From: Sedimenticola sp.
GTDB taxonomy: Bacteria; Pseudomonadota; Gammaproteobacteria; Chromatiales; Chromatiaceae
Assembly: GCA_011051655.1 (NCBI GenBank)
Contig: DRKS01000061.1
Location: 1-52,725, forward strand
Reading direction: 5' to 3'
Length of the DNA: 52,725 bases
A program made the position numbers and the translations under genes. The notes beneath the pieces are model-generated. The model was not told the DNA's origin. It was given only the letters and a program-made list of their open reading frames with translations, and searched no databases. Within the stretch, counting starts at the first letter, position 1; every line of letters starts with the position of its first letter. Positions 3,324 through 38,670 of this stretch are shown here, piece by piece.

Positions 3324-4460
3324 TCAGGGCTCCTCGATATGGACGCCGCATTCGTGGCATACATATTCCACCACCTCCAGGCCGAATCCCGAAATCCCGT
3401 GGAAGCTCTTGGGGGCGCTCAGCACCCGCATCTTGCGCACGCCGAGATCGGACAGAATCTGGGCGCCGACGCCGAAGGTGCGCAGTTCCTTGCCGCGGTC
3501 GCGCCTCGGCGGCTTGCCCTTTTCCTCGCGGATCTGGTAGTCCCGGATGCGCTGTATGATCTCCCTGGAGGAATCATGGTTGCGCAGCACCACGATGATG
3601 CCGGCCCCCGCATCCGCCACCCATTTCATGGCGCTGCGCAGGTGCCAGCCGTGATCGAAACGAATGGTGCCGAACAGATCGTAGAGGGAATTCTGCATAT
3701 GCACCCGCACCAAAGTCGGCTCCTCCGGATCCACCTCGCCCAGCACCAGGGCCAGGTGGAGTTCGTCGTCGATGCAGTCCTGGTAGGCCACCAGGTGAAA
3801 GTCGCCATACTCCGTCGGCAGCTGGCATTCGGTCACGCGCTCCACGGTTTTCTCATGGCGCACCCGGTATTGGATCAGGTCGGCGATGGTCCCGATCTTC
3901 AGGCCATGCTCCGCAGCGAAGGCCTCCAGGTCAGGGCGCCGCGCCATGGTGCCGTCCTCATTCAGGATCTCCACGATCACCGCCGCCGGGGTCAGCCCGG
4001 CCAGCCGGGCCAGGTCGCAGCCGGCCTCGGTGTGACCGGCCCGTACCAGGACGCCGCCGGGCAGCCCCATGAGGGGGAAGACATGGCCGGGCTGGACCAG
4101 GTCGTCCGGCCGGGCGTCCGGGGCCACCGCCGCCAATATGGTGGTGGCCCGGTCAGCGGCGGATATGCCGGTGGTCACCCCTTCCGCCGCCTCGATGGAG
4201 ACAGTGAAATTGGTGGCGTACTGGGTGTCCAGATCGCTCACCATCATGGGCAGGCGCAGCTGCTTGCAGCGCTCCTCCGTCAGGGTCAGGCAGATCAGGC
4301 CACGGCCGTAGCGGGCCATGAAATTGATGGCCTCCGGCGTGACCTTGTCCGCCGCCATGAGCAGATCGCCCTCGTTCTCACGGTCCTCGTCATCCATGAT
4401 GATGACGATTTTCCCCTGACGGAGATCTTCAATGATTTCTTCAGTGCTGTTCAGGGCCAT
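3324..4460 (-). CDS. ribB: 3,4-dihydroxy-2-butanone 4-phosphate synthase with degenerate GTP cyclohydrolase II domain (RibBX type)
   Basis: The N-terminal half (about 1-200) is a complete RibB, which converts ribulose 5-phosphate to the four-carbon riboflavin precursor. It shows [10 protein letters not shown] (23-32) and the [14 protein letters not shown] site. The C-terminal half (about 205-378) aligns with GTP cyclohydrolase II but lacks its chemistry. The zinc region normally reading SLRCDCG is TIRFDHG here, the first zinc Cys is absent, and the HQEGR loop is NHDSSR. This is the RibBX form described in Proteobacteria, so a separate ribA is expected elsewhere. The start is set at the ATG at 4460 (MALNSTEEI); a longer frame to 4547 adds 29 unconserved residues. 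Confidence 0.93.
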
Positions 4461-4577
4461 AGGGTCAAGGTCGAATCGCGCCCGCCGCGGGGCGCGCAAA
4501 ATGATTTCATTGCAGCGAACGGGATAGTCTACCAAAGGGCCGGGCATTCAAACAAAAAGCCCCCGCTCCGCGGCCGT

Positions 4578-5237
4578 CTATTTCAGAAAACCATGCTCCG
4601 CCAGGAAAGCACGGCTGATGCCGGCCGCATTGGCGCAGCCGGCCTTTTCCCCGAGCAGCAGGCGCTCCAGGTAGCGGGCGATCAGGTCCACCTCCAGATT
4701 GACCGCCGTCCCCGCCCGGTAGCCGTCGATGATGGTCTCTTGCAGGGTATGGGGAACGATGTTGAGCCCGAACACCCGGCCCGCCACCTCATTGACCGTC
4801 AGGCTGGTCCCGTCCACGCAGATGGAGCCCTTGGGGGCGATGTAGCGGGCCAGCTCCTCCGGCGCCTCGATGCGCAGGCGCACCGACCGGGCGTCATCGC
4901 GGCGCTCCAGCACCCGGCCCAGGCCATCCACGTGGCCGCTCACCAGATGCCCCCCCAGGGGGGTGCTCAGGGTCAGGGCCTTCTCCAGGTTGACCGGGGT
5001 GGCGGCGCGCAGCCCTCCCAGGGTGGTCAGCGACAGGGTCTCGTGCGAGACATCGGCGGCAAAGCCGTCTCCCGCAAGCTCCACCGCCGTCAGGCAGACA
5101 CCGTTGACCGCGATGCTGTCACCCGGATTGGCGCCCTCCAGATCCAGCTTGCCGGCATTGATGCACAGGCGCACGTCACCGCCCCGCTGCTCCAGATTGG
5201 CCACGGTGCCGATGGCCTGAATGATGCCTGTGAACAT
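4578..5237 (-). CDS. ribE: Riboflavin synthase, alpha chain
   Basis: Dismutates two lumazine molecules to riboflavin. The 219-aa protein has the two homologous lumazine-binding barrels: MFTGIIQ and VNGVCLTAV in the first (about 1-97), ICVDGTSLTVNEV in the second. AGGGAACGG at 5243-5251 is a good ribosome binding site for the ATG at 5237. It directly follows the T-run of a terminator-like hairpin (5252-5313), so ribE expression may depend on readthrough or structure there. In related genomes ribE follows ribD directly; here a membrane glycosyltransferase gene and a mobile element lie between them. Confidence 0.97.
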   Translation of the reverse strand: MFTGIIQAIGTVANLEQRGGDVRLCINAGKLDLEGANPGDSIAVNGVCLTAVELAGDGFAADVSHETLSLTTLGGLRAATPVNLEKALTLSTPLGGHLVSGHVDGLGRVLERRDDARSVRLRIEAPEELARYIAPKGSICVDGTSLTVNEVAGRVFGLNIVPHTLQETIIDGYRAGTAVNLEVDLIARYLERLLLGEKAGCANAAGISRAFLAEHGFLK

Positions 5238-5313: not shown

Positions 5314-6842
5314 CAAAAATCCGCGCTGAAAGATGGAGTAGAAGTTATCTGGCGTTTTTTGTAAAGGATCACCTTCGGCGCATCCGTCACAGTCCGGTAC
5401 CTGTGGTAGAAGGGGTCCGGCCTGTTGCCCCAGGGGATGTCCGGGTAGTCGATGCGAATCGGCCGGTAGCCCCGGGCCAGGTAGCGCAGAAAGCCCTCGT
5501 TCGGCCGCCCCCGCCTGGGGATGATCCAGTCCGCCTGCTCCGGCACCCGCAGATCCTGGCCGAAGCCGATGGCCCGCATGCCGGTGTAGAACATGATGGG
5601 CAACTGCCCGTAGTTGGTGATGACAAACTGGTCCGCATCGCCATGTTCCTTCAGATAACGGACGATCCCCTCGTTGGGGCCATCGTAGTCGTGGGTTATT
5701 TCGTAGAGAAAATCCGGGAAATCGAATTTCAGCCGGTGGGGCGGCAAGGCCAGCGTAAAGACGTTGGTAAAGATCAGCAATGCCAGCACGACGGTGGCGG
5801 CCGCCCGGTTGAAATCCCAGATGCGCCATACCACCAGGCCCAGCAATATGGCGCAGACCGGCGTCAACCCAATGAGGTAGCGGAAGTAGGCCCAGGGCAG
5901 CACCGACAGGACCGCCACGGTGGCCAGCACCGTCAGAAGCAGCAGAAAAAAATTGCCCCGGCCGATGCCCGCGCCGTTCCAGGCGCTCTTCTTCCGGCGC
6001 CAGAAAAGGAGGGGGATGAGCAGGAAGGGGAAAAAGTAGCCGTTCAGATTGATGATGTTTTTCCCCACAAACAGCTTCAGCCGGTCAAAAAAGCCCAGGG
6101 CGTACTCTTCGAAGACATTGGACTTGTCCCAGGCCTCGGTATAGAAAATCCAGGGCAGGGTAAACAGGGAGACGACCAGCACCGACGCCAGCACCGACTT
6201 GAAGGCCGGCCGCCCGGCCTTGAAGACGAAACATCCCAGATAGTGCAGCAGGATGCCTCCCGCCACACCGAAGAGGATGACAAAATTGCTGTAAAACAGC
6301 GTCACCGCCGACAGCGCCACCTGGAGAACGGCGCCCTTCTCCCGGTCCCGCAGTCTCAGACAGGCGTAAAGCAGCCAGAGGGTCGCAAAAACCGCCAGCA
6401 CATACCACCGGGCCTGGCGGGTATGCAGCAGAAAGGGAATGGAGGTGACGAACAACAGGGTCGAGATGCGGGTCAGGGTCTCGTTGCGGCCCAGCCGCAG
6501 GGTAAAAAAATAAAACAGCACGACGGCGGCCAGCCCCACCAGCGCAAAAGGGAGCCGGGCGGCGAACGCATTCATCCCAAGCAGCTTGAACGAGAAGGCC
6601 GCGGCATAGAATTGCAGCCAGGGGCTCCAGGTCCAGACATGGCCTTCGTTGGAATCCAGCCCGGCATTCTGGGTGATCAGGTTCTTGCCGTCCCAGGCGC
6701 TGGGATAGCCCTTGGCCAATATGCTCTTGGCCAGCAGGGCGGTCTCGGCCTCGTCCTGCCACAGGTACTGGTTGCCGAGGTTGGTGAAAAGCAGGAGCCC
6801 GGCGATGGCCAGGATGGCGACCAGGAAGAAGTGTCGCGCCAT
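5313..6842 (-). CDS. Membrane glycosyltransferase, GT39/ArnT-like (GT-C fold)
   Basis: A 509-aa polytopic inner-membrane protein, probably using a polyprenyl-linked sugar to modify an envelope target; the substrate cannot be told. After the first membrane segment (about 5-20) comes LWQDEAETALLAKSI, which holds the acidic residues of the first periplasmic loop typical of GT39/ArnT enzymes. About ten further hydrophobic segments and a soluble C-terminal part (from about 390) follow. The gene splits the riboflavin operon between ribD and ribE. Its ATG at 6842 directly abuts the TTAA target site of the MITE-like element, so its ribosome binding region now comes from the element (GAGAAATGCGGGTTA before ATG). 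The next in-frame Met is about 90 residues in. Confidence 0.82.
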   Translation of the reverse strand: MARHFFLVAILAIAGLLLFTNLGNQYLWQDEAETALLAKSILAKGYPSAWDGKNLITQNAGLDSNEGHVWTWSPWLQFYAAAFSFKLLGMNAFAARLPFALVGLAAVVLFYFFTLRLGRNETLTRISTLLFVTSIPFLLHTRQARWYVLAVFATLWLLYACLRLRDREKGAVLQVALSAVTLFYSNFVILFGVAGGILLHYLGCFVFKAGRPAFKSVLASVLVVSLFTLPWIFYTEAWDKSNVFEEYALGFFDRLKLFVGKNIINLNGYFFPFLLIPLLFWRRKKSAWNGAGIGRGNFFLLLLTVLATVAVLSVLPWAYFRYLIGLTPVCAILLGLVVWRIWDFNRAAATVVLALLIFTNVFTLALPPHRLKFDFPDFLYEITHDYDGPNEGIVRYLKEHGDADQFVITNYGQLPIMFYTGMRAIGFGQDLRVPEQADWIIPRRGRPNEGFLRYLARGYRPIRIDYPDIPWGNRPDPFYHRYRTVTDAPKVILYKKRQITSTPSFSADF

Positions 6843-7161
6843 TAACCCGCATTTCTCACCAGGCGGACCCGGTTAATTGAGAAATTTATGAAATTCAATG
6901 TACTTAGCCTCATAAAGTGATGGCGGTTAATTTATACTCTGTCCTATTTGGTTTTTGGAACACAAATTCGCCTGGAGCGAATTTGGACCGCGCAGCGACC
7001 CCGAAGGGGTAGAATACAGGGATGTATTCCATCAATCTGGCTTCGCATCTTGAACGATCAGCCTTGAATCATAGCTGCGGCTATGCTTCGGCGGCCGATC
7101 GTCCAACCTGCTTCGCCAGCTTGCCCCAAAAATCCAAATCCTGGTGAGAAATGCGGGTTAA
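6842..7161. mobile_element. MITE-like element, complete copy
   Basis: Perfect 18-bp terminal inverted repeats, CCCGCATTTCTCACCAGG at 6846-6863 and its reverse complement at 7140-7157, enclose 312 bp without a credible gene. TTAA flanks both ends (6842-6845 and 7158-7161), consistent with a 4-bp target duplication. A second copy begins at 52577 in opposite orientation, with only three differences over the shared stretch apart from an indel. This copy has an extra 72-bp segment (6961-7032). Without the element and one TTAA, the ribD stop and the glycosyltransferase start would form TAATG. No transposase is in the window, so it must be mobilised in trans if active; I cannot name the parent IS. 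Confidence 0.85.
6961..7032. repeat. 72-bp module of three short palindromes inside the MITE copy
   Basis: This segment is present in the first copy and cleanly absent from the copy at the right end of the window. It consists of three perfect hairpins in a row: AAATTCG/CGAATTT (6964-6984), ACCCC/GGGGT with loop GAA (6998-7010), and GAATACA/TGTATTC (7012-7029). Confidence 0.8.
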
Positions 7162-8315
7162 ATCCCCCCTTGCCCCCCCTTGGCAAAGGGGGGCCGGGAG
7201 GATTTGACAGCACGGATCCGCCAGTCCCTGCCTATGGGCCGGACATCCAGGATGTCCAATTCAATGCGTTCCTGCATCCTCTCCAGGCCGGGCAGGTGAA
7301 ACAGCCCCTTGCCGCCATCCCCCATCAGGTGCGGCGCCATATAGATCACCAGCTCGTCCACCAGCCCCGCCTGCAGCGCGCTCCCGGCAAGGGTCGGCCC
7401 GGCCTCCAGCAGCACCTCGTTGATCTCCAGTCCGGCCAGATATTCCAGGGCCGCCCGCAGATCCACCCGCCCGTCCCGCTCTCCCACCGCTGCGACAGAG
7501 GCGCCGGCGGCCTCCAGGGCGGCGCGGCGATTGTCGCCGGCATGCGCGCACAGGATGAGGGTTTGGCCGGGGAGATCCAGCATCCGGGCCTCCGGCGGCG
7601 TCCGCAACCCGGAATCCAGCACTACGCGAAGAGGCCGCGGCAGCTCCGCATCGGACTCGATGCCTTCCAGCTCCGGCGGCGCCAGCCTGACGTCGAGGGA
7701 AGGATCATCAGCGATCACCGTCTCCACGCCGGTCATCACCGCCGAGCTGCGCGCCCGCAGGCGGTGCACGTCCCGCCGGGCCGCCTCCGAGGTGATCCAC
7801 TTGCTCTCACCGCTGGCCATGGCGGTGCGGCCATCCAGGCTCATGGCCAGCTTGCAGCGCAGATGGGGCAGGCCACGGCTCATGCGCTTGATGAAGCCTG
7901 GGTTCAGCCCCCGCGCCTGGGACTCCAGCAGGCCGGACTCCACCTGAATCCCGGCCTGGCGCAGCCGCGCCAGCCCCTTCCCGGCGACCAGGGGATTGGG
8001 ATCTCGCATGGCCGCCACCACCCGCCCCACGCCGGCCGCGATCAGGGCGTCGGCGCAGGGCGGCGTGCGCCCCCGATGGGAACAGGGCTCCAGGGAGACA
8101 TAGGCGGTGGCACCCCGGGCGCGCTCACCCGCGGCCGCCAGGGCATTGACTTCGGCATGGGGTCCGCCGGCGCGGCGGTGAAAGCCCTCGCCCAGGATTT
8201 CCCCCGCGCGCACAAGGACACAGCCGACACGGGGATTGGGATGCGTGCTATAGAGTCCTTTGCGCGCCAGCCGGATGGCCCGCGCCATGAAGCGGTAGTC
8301 CAGGGAGCATGTCAT
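7158..8315 (-). CDS. ribD: Bifunctional diaminohydroxyphosphoribosylaminopyrimidine deaminase / 5-amino-6-(5-phosphoribosylamino)uracil reductase
   Basis: Carries out the deamination and ribose-reduction steps after GTP ring opening in riboflavin synthesis. The deaminase domain (about 1-145) has the zinc site HAE (53-55) and [11 protein letters not shown] (77-87). The reductase domain (about 147-365) has [12 protein letters not shown] and [11 protein letters not shown]. The last residues, [12 protein letters not shown], are the translation of a G/C-rich palindromic repeat (7162-7205). The TAA stop is part of the TTAA next to the MITE-like element. The start overlaps nrdR by 4 nt (ATGA), so nrdR and ribD are coupled. 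Confidence 0.95.
7162..7205. repeat. C-run/G-run palindromic repeat forming the ribD 3' end
   Basis: Runs of C (7164-7180) separated by TTG are followed by GGCAAAG and runs of G, giving an imperfect palindrome that reads as [12 protein letters not shown] at the ribD C-terminus. From general knowledge, peptides such as [10 protein letters not shown] recur at ORF ends in many unrelated bacteria because the DNA is a dispersed repeat. That is recognition, not a search result. Confidence 0.55.
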
Positions 8316-8812
8316 GTCTTGCCCGGAAGATCCAACTGCTTCTGTCCGGCCTCCGGCACAAGCTGGCGCTCAAGCCGCTCGATCTCCTCCCGGAAGGCGT
8401 TCACATCCTCGAACTTGCGGTAAACGGAGGCAAAACGCACATAGGCCACCTCATCCAGACTGCGCAGCTCCTCCATCACCCACTCACCAATCTGGTTGGT
8501 GGGCACCTCGGACTCACCTGTCGCCATCAGCCTGCGCCGGATGTGGTTGAGGGCGGCGTCCACCTGCTCGGTGCTCACCGGCCGCTTCTCCAGCGCCCGC
8601 ATGATGCCGGAGGCCAGCTTGCGGCCGTCGAAGGGCACCCGGCTGCCGTCCCGCTTGACCAGGCGCGGCAGGTTCAGCTCGGCGGTTTCGTAAGTGGTGT
8701 AGCGCTCCTTGCAGACGGTGCACTCCCGGCGGCGGCGCACCTGATCACCCTCCCCCGACAGGCGGGAGTCGATGACCTTGGTATCCTGGGCGCCACAGAA
8801 AGGACAACGCAT
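8312..8812 (-). CDS. nrdR: Transcriptional repressor NrdR
   Basis: Zinc-ribbon and ATP-cone repressor of ribonucleotide reductase genes, which senses dATP/ATP. The 166-aa protein starts MRCPFC and has the second Cys pair CTVC (C3, C6, C31, C34). The ATP-cone follows ([19 protein letters not shown] to [13 protein letters not shown]). It overlaps ribD by 4 nt and lies 63 nt downstream of glyA, the common glyA-nrdR-ribD order. Confidence 0.97.
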
Positions 8813-36205: not shown

Positions 36206-37390
36206 ATGGCGAAGATCCTGATCATCGACTCGACGGAGGGCAAACGGACCCCCTTTCTGCGGGGCATCCTCACGCGTTCCCTGCAGGCTGCGGGGCTGCC
36301 CTTTGAAGAGGCCTTCGGCATGGCCTCGAAAATCCGCCAGGAGCTGGCCGACACCCCGGAGATAACCACCAGCGAGTTGCGCAAAATGGTGACCCGGCAC
36401 CTGAACCAGACCTACGGCGAAGCCACAGCACGGCGCTATCAGACCCCCTCCCGCGCGCCCGCGACCATATTGGTGGAACGCACCAACCAGCAGGCGACGC
36501 CCTTCTCCCGGGGGGAACTCCGGCGCAGCCTGGAGTGCTGCGGCCTCCCCGAGGAGGAGGCCATGCTGATCGTGGCGGAAATCTACAATCATCTCGTCGG
36601 CAAAGGCATCGCCAAAATCAGCTCCGCCGAACTGGGTCTGATGACCTACCGCTACCTTCGCCGTGAACTGGGCCCGGACGCCGCCAAGCGCTATCTGGTG
36701 TGGGCGGACTACCGGCACGGCAACCGCCCCCTGCTGATCCTGATCGGCGGGGCGCCGGGCTGCGGCAAAAGCACCCTGGCCACCGAGTTGGCCACCCGGC
36801 TCGACATCGTGCGCACCCAGTCCACCGACATGCTGCGCGAAGTGATGCGGGTCATGCTGCCCAGCCGCCTCCTGCCCGTGCTGCACACCTCCTCATTCGA
36901 CGCCTGGAAGGCCCTGCCGGCGCCGGTGGAATCCCTCACCGACCGCAACAGCCTGCTGGCGGACGGCTACCGCACCCAGGCGGAGCTTCTGTCGGTGGCC
37001 GCCGAGGCGGTCATACAGCGGGCCCTCAAGGAACGGGTCTCATTGATACTGGAGGGGGTCCATGTGAACCCCGGCTTTCTCGAAAACATCCCCAAGGAGG
37101 CGGACGCCATCATAGTGCCTGTCATGCTCGCCGTCATGGACCCGGACCTGCTGCGCCAACGCTATAAAGGCCGGGGCCAGCAGGCGCCCAACCGCCGGGC
37201 TGAGCGTTACCTGGAGAACTTCGACGCCATCTGGCGGCTGCAATCCATCCTGCTTTCGGAGGCGGAGCGCACCGGCGTCCGCATCGTCACCAACGACAAC
37301 CGGGAAAAGGCCATTCAGGAGGTCATGGAGACCACCATCAACGCCCTGACCCAAGACTTCTCCGGCACTCCGGAAGAGGTATTCGTATGA
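36206..37390 (+). CDS. 2-phosphoglycerate kinase with two tandem ATP-cone domains
   Basis: Predicted to phosphorylate 2-phosphoglycerate to 2,3-bisphosphoglycerate, an activity known from methanogens that make cyclic 2,3-diphosphoglycerate. From MAKILIIDST (ATG at 36206) the protein is 394 aa. Two ATP-cones lie at about 3-79 (TPFLRGILTRSL) and 88-166 (TPFSRGELRRSL). Then comes a P-loop kinase with GGAPGCGKST (181-190), STDMLREVMR and LILEGVHVNPG. A GTG at 36173 would add 11 residues. The stop overlaps the next gene by 4 nt (ATGA), so they are coupled. The doubled cone suggests allosteric control by adenine nucleotides. The activity itself is inferred from family resemblance. Confidence 0.82.
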   Translation: MAKILIIDSTEGKRTPFLRGILTRSLQAAGLPFEEAFGMASKIRQELADTPEITTSELRKMVTRHLNQTYGEATARRYQTPSRAPATILVERTNQQATPFSRGELRRSLECCGLPEEEAMLIVAEIYNHLVGKGIAKISSAELGLMTYRYLRRELGPDAAKRYLVWADYRHGNRPLLILIGGAPGCGKSTLATELATRLDIVRTQSTDMLREVMRVMLPSRLLPVLHTSSFDAWKALPAPVESLTDRNSLLADGYRTQAELLSVAAEAVIQRALKERVSLILEGVHVNPGFLENIPKEADAIIVPVMLAVMDPDLLRQRYKGRGQQAPNRRAERYLENFDAIWRLQSILLSEAERTGVRIVTNDNREKAIQEVMETTINALTQDFSGTPEEVFV

Positions 37391-38670
37391 GCCCGCGCCG
37401 CAAGGGCCTGCTGCTCATCCTGGATGGGCTGGGAGACCGGCCGGCCGCCCTCTTTCATGGCGCCACCCCCCTGGAGGCCGCCCACACCCCCCGGCTGGAC
37501 CGGCTGGCGGCAGCCGGGCTCTGCGGCATGGTGGACCCACTGTTTCCCGGCGTCCCCGTCGCCACCCATACCGGCACCGGCATCCTGCTTGGACTGGCCC
37601 CGGGCGACGCCGTCCGCTTGTCCCGGGGACCGGTGGAAGCAGCGGGCATAGGGCTGCCCATCGAGCCGGGCGACGTGGCCATTCGCTGCAATTTCGCAAC
37701 CCTGCGGGCCCGGGGCGACAAGCTGACCGTAGTGGACCGGCGTGCCGGCCGCATCCGTGAAGGCACCGGGGAATTGGCCGCCGGACTGCAACAGCTCCCC
37801 GTCGGAGACGGCATCCTGGCCAGCCTGCAGCCCTCTACCCAGCACCGCGCCGTACTGCGGTTGTCCGGGCCCGGGCTCTCGGCCGCCATCACCGACACGG
37901 ATCCGGAGGATGACGCCAATCCCGGAAAGGAACTCCTGAGCCGGCCACTCGTTCCCGGCGACCCGGCGGCCGCACGCACCGCCGAGGCCCTCAACCGGTT
38001 CATCCGCGAGGCCCACAAGCGGCTGCGGGACCATCCGGTCAACCGGGAGCGCAAGCGGCGGGGACTGCCACCGGCCACGGGGATCATCACCCGCGGCGCG
38101 GGCATGCTGCACCAGGTCCGCAATCTCGTCCATCATCTCAACCTGCGGGCGGCCCTCATCGCAGGCGAGGGAAGCGTGCGCGGGCTGGGCAGGCTGTTCG
38201 ACTATACGGTCATCACCGAGCCGGGGTTCAGCGCGCTGCCCGATACCGACCTGGCGGCCAAGGTCAGGGCGGCGCGCATGGCGCTGGATGAGCACGACCT
38301 CGTATTCATGCATGTGAAGGCGCCGGACATCTGCGCCCACGATCTGGCGCCGGACAAGAAAAGGGACTTCCTGGAGCGCTTCGACGAAGCGATATCGCCA
38401 CTTTTCACGGACGACCTGGTCATCGGCGTATCAGGCGACCACTCCACAAACTCCACCACCGGCAACCATTGCGCGGACCCCGTGCCGACGCTGCTCCACT
38501 ATCCGGGGACCCGCCGGGACGGCTGCCGCCATTTCGGCGAAAGCGACTGCATAGGGGGCGGCCTGGGCCGCATCCCTGCAACCGGCTTCCTGTTGACGCT
38601 GCTGGATGCAATGGGGGCGATGCACAACCTGCGGCCGGATGACCGCATTTTCTTCACCCCAGGGCTCTAG
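37387..38670 (+). CDS. ApgM-like 2,3-bisphosphoglycerate-independent phosphoglycerate mutase (archaeal type)
   Basis: A 427-aa member of the alkaline phosphatase superfamily of the archaeal ApgM branch. Matching elements are LLLILDGLGDRP (metal Asp at D13), GDVAIRCNFATLRARGD, TGIITRGAGM, HVKAPDICAHD (metal His/Asp) and SGDHSTNSTTGNHCADPVPTLL. The nucleophile region, usually containing a Ser-Asp pair, reads VATHTGTGILLG, so Thr60 or Thr62 would have to serve. Coupling to the 2-phosphoglycerate kinase points to 2- or 3-phosphoglycerate or 2,3-bisphosphoglycerate as substrate. Mutase or phosphatase activity cannot be settled. Its 3' end overlaps the convergent nuclease gene by 4 nt. Confidence 0.82.
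   Translation: MSPRRKGLLLILDGLGDRPAALFHGATPLEAAHTPRLDRLAAAGLCGMVDPLFPGVPVATHTGTGILLGLAPGDAVRLSRGPVEAAGIGLPIEPGDVAIRCNFATLRARGDKLTVVDRRAGRIREGTGELAAGLQQLPVGDGILASLQPSTQHRAVLRLSGPGLSAAITDTDPEDDANPGKELLSRPLVPGDPAAARTAEALNRFIREAHKRLRDHPVNRERKRRGLPPATGIITRGAGMLHQVRNLVHHLNLRAALIAGEGSVRGLGRLFDYTVITEPGFSALPDTDLAAKVRAARMALDEHDLVFMHVKAPDICAHDLAPDKKRDFLERFDEAISPLFTDDLVIGVSGDHSTNSTTGNHCADPVPTLLHYPGTRRDGCRHFGESDCIGGGLGRIPATGFLLTLLDAMGAMHNLRPDDRIFFTPGL

Follow-up and report, generated by a model that had tools for sequence, protein, structure and literature searches.

A stretch of 52,725 nucleotides from a Sedimenticola sp. contig (DRKS01000061.1), hereafter the window, contains an operon of two overlapping genes, which code for a kinase of the 2-phosphoglycerate kinase (2PGK) family and for an altered relative of the phosphoglycerate mutase ApgM. 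The pairing is a conserved bacterial module and not a product of chance, since 56 of the 80 kinase loci analysed show the two genes in this order and on one strand. Because relatives of the pair often adjoin phosphate-uptake and polyphosphate genes, the two proteins probably serve phosphate management and not just the breakdown of sugars. Our preferred and still tentative reading, to which we assign a probability of about 0.4, is that they form a dedicated phosphate-homeostasis module. The phosphate context was observed in the relatives and adds to what can be read from the window itself.

The gene pair and its distribution

The features of the pair, all on the plus strand, are the following.

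36206..37390, +: kinase-like gene, ATG to TGA (open reading frame call), for a 2-phosphoglycerate-kinase-like protein of 394 amino acids in which two ATP-cone-like domains at the N-terminus precede a P-loop kinase domain at the C-terminus
36215..36442, +: ATP-cone-like domain 1, residues 4-79 (matched on its own by the N-terminal section of the PRK04220 profile; Pfam reports two stretches)
36473..36718, +: ATP-cone-like domain 2, residues 90-171 (best stretch of Pfam PF03477)
36746..36772, +: Walker A motif GGAPGCGKS, residues 181-189 (alignment)
37372..37379, +: Shine-Dalgarno-like GGAAGAGG, seven bases 5' of the ATG of the second gene (sequence)
37387..37390, +: ATGA overlap, stop of the kinase gene and start of the ApgM-like gene (read from the sequence)
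37387..38670, +: ApgM-like gene (open reading frame call), for an alkaline-phosphatase-superfamily protein of the Thr-nucleophile type, 427 amino acids (Pfam, NCBIfam, structure model)
37564..37569, +: Thr60-His61, where canonical ApgM has the catalytic Ser-Asp (alignment)

The initial annotation had described an ATGA overlap of two same-strand genes, two ATP-cones in the kinase, and an operon joining a 2PGK-family kinase to an ApgM-family protein, and all three descriptions are borne out by the reading frames (36206-37390 and 37387-38670) and by the Pfam and NCBIfam matches. Its view of the pair as an archaeal-style oddity in one bacterium does not hold, as loci with the module carry both Gammaproteobacteria and Planctomycetota labels, and 2PGK and ApgM genes had been reported earlier from the bacteria Thermus and Deinococcus (PMC1274311).

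One contig scan confirmed 185 relatives of the kinase, and the 80 loci analysed are the best 80 of these 185. They are labelled mostly as Gammaproteobacteria (Sedimenticola, Thiodiazotropha, tubeworm symbionts and metagenome-assembled genomes from sediment), and nine of them as Planctomycetota or Planctomycetia. The five closest relatives among these best 80 of 185, with kinases 71-76% identical to that of the window, carry the labels Gammaproteobacteria (three), Sedimenticola (one) and Candidatus Polarisedimenticolaceae (one), which for the most part fit the gammaproteobacterial host given in the initial annotation. In the 56 paired loci the ApgM-like homologue lies directly 3' of the kinase, with an estimated gap of -9 to 468 bp. 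The other 24 have no adjacent ApgM: eight have a counted histidine phosphatase near the kinase, 13 have neither, and three end too early. The histidine phosphatase is upstream in one of the eight, and convergent and just 3' of the kinase in the other seven, which form one kinase subclade without ApgM. At L044:3977-4951, among the 13, a different histidine phosphatase fused to NUDIX is encoded directly 3' of the kinase.

The kinase is rare overall. Among 398 Pseudomonadota genomes, an archaeal kinase model at 1e-10 matched in the window's genome only, in a first look with no more than five candidates scored per genome. When the proteins of 55 genomes, namely the window's own (95.8% complete) and 54 relatives, were searched, 13 gave strong kinase matches and 16 gave matches at E 1e-3 or better. 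The ApgM domain PF10143 was found in eight of the 55, in seven as kinase-linked copies and in the eighth as a weak match.

Phosphate genes beside the kinase

Neighbouring open reading frames within 8 kb were clustered without regard to function, NCBIfam and Pfam supplied names for representatives of the phosphate families, and some other families were named by eye. The larger families include PstB, PhoU, PstS, PstA/C, PPK1, DUF47, a Na/Pi cotransporter, Pit and PPK2; the one with PstB (family 2) is mixed with other, Mla-like ABC ATPases, and PstB was counted only at an identity of at least 48%. A phosphate gene (Pst, PhoU, Pit, Na/Pi, PPK1 or PPK2) lies no more than 8 kb from the kinase in 68 of 80 loci, versus 1 of 60 control segments (Fisher p 4e-26). 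The controls came from six kinase-bearing genomes and were searched with fixed queries, and the mean length was 13 kb in both sets. When near-duplicates (kinases at least 75% identical) are removed, the counts become 42 of 49 loci versus 1 of 60 controls (Fisher p 1e-21). Loci with ApgM have a phosphate gene in 46 of 56 cases, loci without it in 22 of 24, and planctomycete-labelled loci in 8 of 9. By a fixed position rule, the direct neighbour of the kinase is a phosphate gene in 61 of 80 loci. The sole core-family match in the controls is the Pst operon of the window's own genome (contig C1), and a second control segment has a SixA-like match only, which falls outside the core set.

It looks as if different phosphate genes joined the module repeatedly, not as one inherited block. 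On a FastTree phylogeny of the kinases (87 rows, many open forks), the phosphate-gene category, in whose assignment Pst took precedence, must have changed at least 16 times among the 68 loci. Treated as single traits, Pst requires 15 changes, Na/Pi nine, Pit/DUF47 eight, PPK2 six and PPK1 three. Loci cut off at contig ends can inflate all these counts. Such repeated association argues for function over a frozen block.

As a separate observation, Pit/DUF47 has two recurrent neighbours in six loci (L098:5633-7781, L053, L040, L047, L056 and L083), namely a calcineurin-like phosphoesterase and a small P-loop protein whose L098 copy has no Pfam match at E 1e-5.

The Pst-PhoU system, a recurrent neighbour in the relatives, differs there from its usual form in that PhoU carries a domain like low-molecular-weight phosphatases and one PstB has LSLEE for LSGGQ. 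The sequence LSLE[EQ]QQKLCIAR stands in place of LSGGQQQRLCI[AG]R in 24 of 26 PstB-like neighbours recognised by the signature pattern, which does not recognise other PstB copies in the same operons. The PstB with LSLE[EQ]QQ (L096:4753-5568, L101, L158 and others) is directly 5' of the kinase in some loci. PhoU exceeds 300 amino acids in 19 of the 24 PhoU neighbours, with tails that are alike by eye, and the tail tested, in L096 (1052-2125), matches the low-molecular-weight phosphatase family. Both variants are also found in the Pst operon of the window's genome (contig C1), where PhoU has a phosphatase-like extension and PstB has LSLEEQQ.

L158, about 3689-4771 (G000:C1), minus strand: extended PhoU of the window's genome

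We would expect a Cys in the phosphatase loop of low-molecular-weight phosphatases. In the extended PhoU proteins this residue looks replaced by acidic ones, which suggests that the domain could be a sensor rather than an enzyme. Strong matches to the PhoU tail occur in eight of the 55 genomes, including the window's, of which seven have the kinase and one does not; six kinase genomes have no strong tail match, and 41 genomes have neither. This co-occurrence gives a Fisher p of 6e-5 over the 55 genomes and of 0.002 within the window's family (34 genomes), relatedness not being corrected for. Two further tail matches are weak, one in a kinase genome and one in a genome without the kinase. PhoU as such is widespread, with any model match in 48 of 55 genomes and a match over the cut-off in 41. 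PPK1 in the window's genome scores 969 bits.

The two proteins

The best NCBIfam match of the kinase is to the 2-phosphoglycerate kinase model PRK12337 (301.1 bits, E 1.2e-89, residues 9-385), and the 2PGK model PRK04220 follows with 291.2 bits (E 9.6e-87, best stretch residues 90-383). Both scores are under the curated equivalog cut-offs, which are 603 and 343 bits, respectively, and the kinases of L027 and L048 likewise fall below the 2PGK equivalog cut-offs. Pfam recognises two ATP-cone stretches (E 8.3e-14, 52.3 bits against a cut-off of 25.8) and the P-loop domains AAA_18, AAA_17 and Zeta_toxin. Residues G182, G187, K188, S189, T207, D208, R211, R323 and R330 are invariant in 43 of 43 aligned kinases, and the P-loop and likely catalytic residues thus appear intact. 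In the predicted model (mean predicted local distance difference test, pLDDT, 87.1), the kinase domain most resembles UMP/CMP and adenylate kinases, whose ranks are tied at Z 14.0-13.7; PDB relatives sought by sequence were rejected as generic P-loop and ATP-cone matches. With archaeal 2PGK (Methanothermus fervidus; PRK04220) and PRK12337, the window's kinase shares the long profile match, ATP-cone and P-loop kinase included. It differs from them in scoring below both cut-offs, in having an ApgM-like partner, and in the phosphate context of its relatives, which have no recognised synthetase of cyclic 2,3-diphosphoglycerate (cDPG) beside them. The 2PGK-like matches on Deinococcus and Meiothermus plasmids are distant and partial, and the annotation shows no phosphate gene within 6 kb of them.

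The second protein has the Pfam domains PhosphMutase (PF10143) and Metalloenzyme (PF01676). It passes the ApgM subfamily model TIGR00306 (329.8 bits, cut-off 320), a cut-off that four relatives straddle with 276-323 bits, and misses that of the ApgM equivalog PRK04024 (354.7 against 489). The names given in the initial annotation are therefore approximate, as the kinase is under both of its cut-offs and the mutase passes TIGR00306 only. The AlphaFold2 model (pLDDT 93.9) is nearest to PDB 2zkt (Z 45.9, root-mean-square deviation 2.7, 375 residues aligned), and more distant matches are iPGM, phosphopentomutase, NPP and phosphonoacetate hydrolase, the last two at Z 19-20. The hydrolases NPP and phosphonoacetate hydrolase typically use Thr as their nucleophile.

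Archaeal ApgM (PRK04024; PDB 2zkt, 3idd and 3kd8) and the window's protein, which is 34-37% identical to the three solved structures, have in common the fold and the residues of the metal and phosphoglycerate sites. They differ in that the window's protein has Thr-His for Ser-Asp, a kinase partner, and a score under the PRK04024 cut-off. The clade alignment comprises 55 rows, i.e., the window and 54 of the 56 loci, two fragments of less than 350 amino acids having been dropped. The nucleophile position is Thr in all 55 rows and the next one His in 54; Ser-Asp is found there in 2zkt, in 3idd and in 30 of 30 PRK04200-type rows. Since the 30 Pseudomonadota comparison loci are of the PRK04200/TIGR02535 type, as judged from both members scanned, many differences between them and the clade are differences between subfamilies; that at the nucleophile was additionally checked against 2zkt, 3idd and plasmid-borne homologues. 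Residues D13, D314, H318, D351, H352 and H361, which we take to be the ligands of the two-metal site, are conserved in the clade. R80, N102, D117, R118, R119, R122, H153, R154, R236, K292 and K311, each kept in at least 52 of 55 rows, are shared with 2zkt and 3idd and, to judge from iPGM structures, presumably form the phosphoglycerate site. The proposal that both proteins of the pair act on related metabolites is likely in view of these residues.

In a FastTree phylogeny with 62 rows, of which seven lie outside the clade, the Thr-His proteins make up one side of a branch with a support of 98. Outside the clade, Thr-Asp is found in a Macrococcus plasmid protein and in L210, neither with a kinase nearby, and this combination would be an intermediate state. 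On the Macrococcus plasmid, typed as mobilizable, the Thr-type ApgM-like gene adjoins a DASS anion symporter and a LysR regulator (L215:2499-6191). In L210 (G089; 6025-8697), the ApgM-like gene is near a SixA-like histidine phosphatase, with no kinase in the 15 kb covered. The window's protein is not a standard ApgM: it has the fold and substrate residues of ApgM and a rebuilt nucleophile loop, and it may therefore be a phosphatase or an altered mutase.

Proposed role and alternatives

As a phosphate-homeostasis module, the pair might work as follows. The ATP-cone kinase, possibly under allosteric control by its cones, would phosphorylate a small acid that already carries phosphate; 2-phosphoglycerate, converted to 2,3-bisphosphoglycerate (2,3-BPG), is the most likely substrate and is suggested by family profiles and pocket residues. 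The Thr-type ApgM-like enzyme would remove or move phosphate on the same substrate set, a histidine phosphatase standing in for it in one kinase subclade, and the two activities would jointly set the level of a bis-phosphorylated metabolite. This metabolite could be a phosphate buffer, or a phosphate or energy cue for variant Pst-PhoU uptake and polyphosphate synthesis. A bolder idea, which we rate as a long shot, is that 2,3-BPG or a close analogue is a soluble bacterial signal of phosphate and ATP status, made by the ATP-cone kinase, read by the phosphatase-like sensor domain of the variant PhoU, and erased by Thr-ApgM or the histidine phosphatase. No open-licence PubMed Central paper was found that ties bacterial 2-phosphoglycerate kinase to phosphate, polyphosphate or PhoU.

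Several observations weigh against a dedicated phosphate module. Gene context shows neither the substrate nor the direction of the reaction. The phosphate families were picked after the neighbourhoods had been viewed, with queries drawn from the same loci and applied equally to the controls, and CorC/CNNM-like, response-regulator, sensor-kinase and Mla-like families recur beside the kinase too, along with many antisense shadow reading frames. No phosphate gene occurs in the 52,725 bases of the window, and in 12 of the 80 loci none lies within 8 kb of the kinase, the stretch covered being the full 17 kb in five of the 12 and shorter in seven. Of 13 kinase loci from closer relatives of the window (L014-L026; several are on short contigs, and at least five coincide with stretches among the 80), a core phosphate gene is present in only three (L016, L018 and L021), against 1 of 60 controls (p 0.016). 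The distant kinase group L022-L025 has no core phosphate gene, and a histidine phosphatase in two of its four loci. Scanning 81 regions 5' of the kinase with the E. coli consensus only gave no clear excess of Pho boxes over shuffles, a scan limited by the fact that the promoter may lie 5' of an upstream gene. With regard to the proteins, 13 of the 80 kinase loci have neither ApgM nor a counted histidine phosphatase, and Thr at the nucleophile is also seen in ApgM-like proteins without a nearby kinase. Finally, ATP-cones have VxKRDG as a conserved nucleotide-binding motif, and the kinases show no conserved Lys-Arg at 91-93 after V90, nor at 7-9 after V/I6.

The main rival, because of its parallel with plant LPA1 (low phytic acid 1), is that the kinase belongs to a phosphate module and acts on a substrate other than phosphoglycerate, the ApgM-like protein being its phosphatase; we hold this to be possible, on the unlikely side. 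LPA1 has weak 2PGK homology and affects phytate, the plant phosphate store (PMC6417671), so that in plants, too, a 2PGK-like P-loop kinase is connected with the storage of phosphate (PMC6417671, PMC7020182). Two roles have been put forward for LPA1, the formation of 2,3-BPG and an inositol-phosphate kinase activity, the latter as an inositol 3-phosphate (Ins(3)P) kinase on the basis of docking (PMC6417671, PMC7020182). The plant protein is eukaryotic and phytate-linked, and the likeness drawn here is one of description. We know of no ApgM partner for LPA1. A different substrate would also fit the position of the window's kinase below the equivalog cut-offs, the hydrolase-like Thr nucleophile of its partner, and the existence of another named specificity in the wider family, that of mevalonate-3-phosphate 5-kinase (PRK12339). 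Nevertheless, this last model scores 73 bits on the kinase against 291-301 for the 2PGK profiles, and the ApgM-like partner retains the phosphoglycerate-site residues.

Ordinary central metabolism, in which the ApgM-like protein would be a second phosphoglycerate mutase, the kinase would drain 2-phosphoglycerate, and the phosphate context would be indirect, appears improbable. It is consistent with the TIGR00306 score, with the match to 2zkt and with the retained metal and substrate residues. However, of the canonical genes gpmA and gpmI, to which the initial annotation had pointed, gpmI is present in full length (G000:C89, 737 bits), as it is, over the cut-off, in the six other genomes whose kinase-linked ApgM copy is strong. 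No gpmA was found over the cut-off in the window's genome, the one weak match reaching 23.6 bits against 81.7. The replacement of a missing mutase by the ApgM-like gene is hence ruled out, and the protein is not needed for glycolysis. Its assignment as an ordinary mutase is further weakened by Thr for the catalytic Ser and His for the adjoining Asp in the clade, and this explanation also sits poorly with the way PF10143 tracks the kinase in related genomes and with the excess of phosphate-gene neighbours.

The synthesis of cDPG by the methanogen route, with the cDPG synthetase gene located elsewhere in the genome, is very unlikely: 2PGK does catalyse the first step of that pathway, but cDPG is described as exclusive to hyperthermophilic methanogens (PMC10690619). 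No cDPG synthetase was recognised by eye among the recurrent neighbour families, a survey made without a profile and without a genome-wide search. Least credible is a supply of 2,3-BPG, the established cofactor of GpmA, to that mutase, given a full gpmI and no gpmA over the cut-off, which leave neither housekeeping nor cofactor supply as an explanation of the pair. Both cDPG synthesis and GpmA priming are thus less likely here, and of the suggestion that 2,3-BPG serves as a cofactor or signal, the mutase-cofactor part falls and the signal part stands as an open idea.

For proteins of this clade, the automatic names 2-phosphoglycerate kinase and phosphoglycerate mutase may mislead. To our knowledge, internal phosphate sensing through bacterial Pst-PhoU is still an open question, and the accounts consulted present what plant LPA1 does biochemically as unsettled (PMC6417671, PMC7020182). 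An operon in which a 2PGK-family kinase and an altered ApgM are repeatedly joined by phosphate genes provides a small, testable system for both questions. If 2,3-BPG did prove to be a signal, it would correspond, in bacteria, to inositol-phosphate signalling and to the plant 2PGK homologue LPA1.

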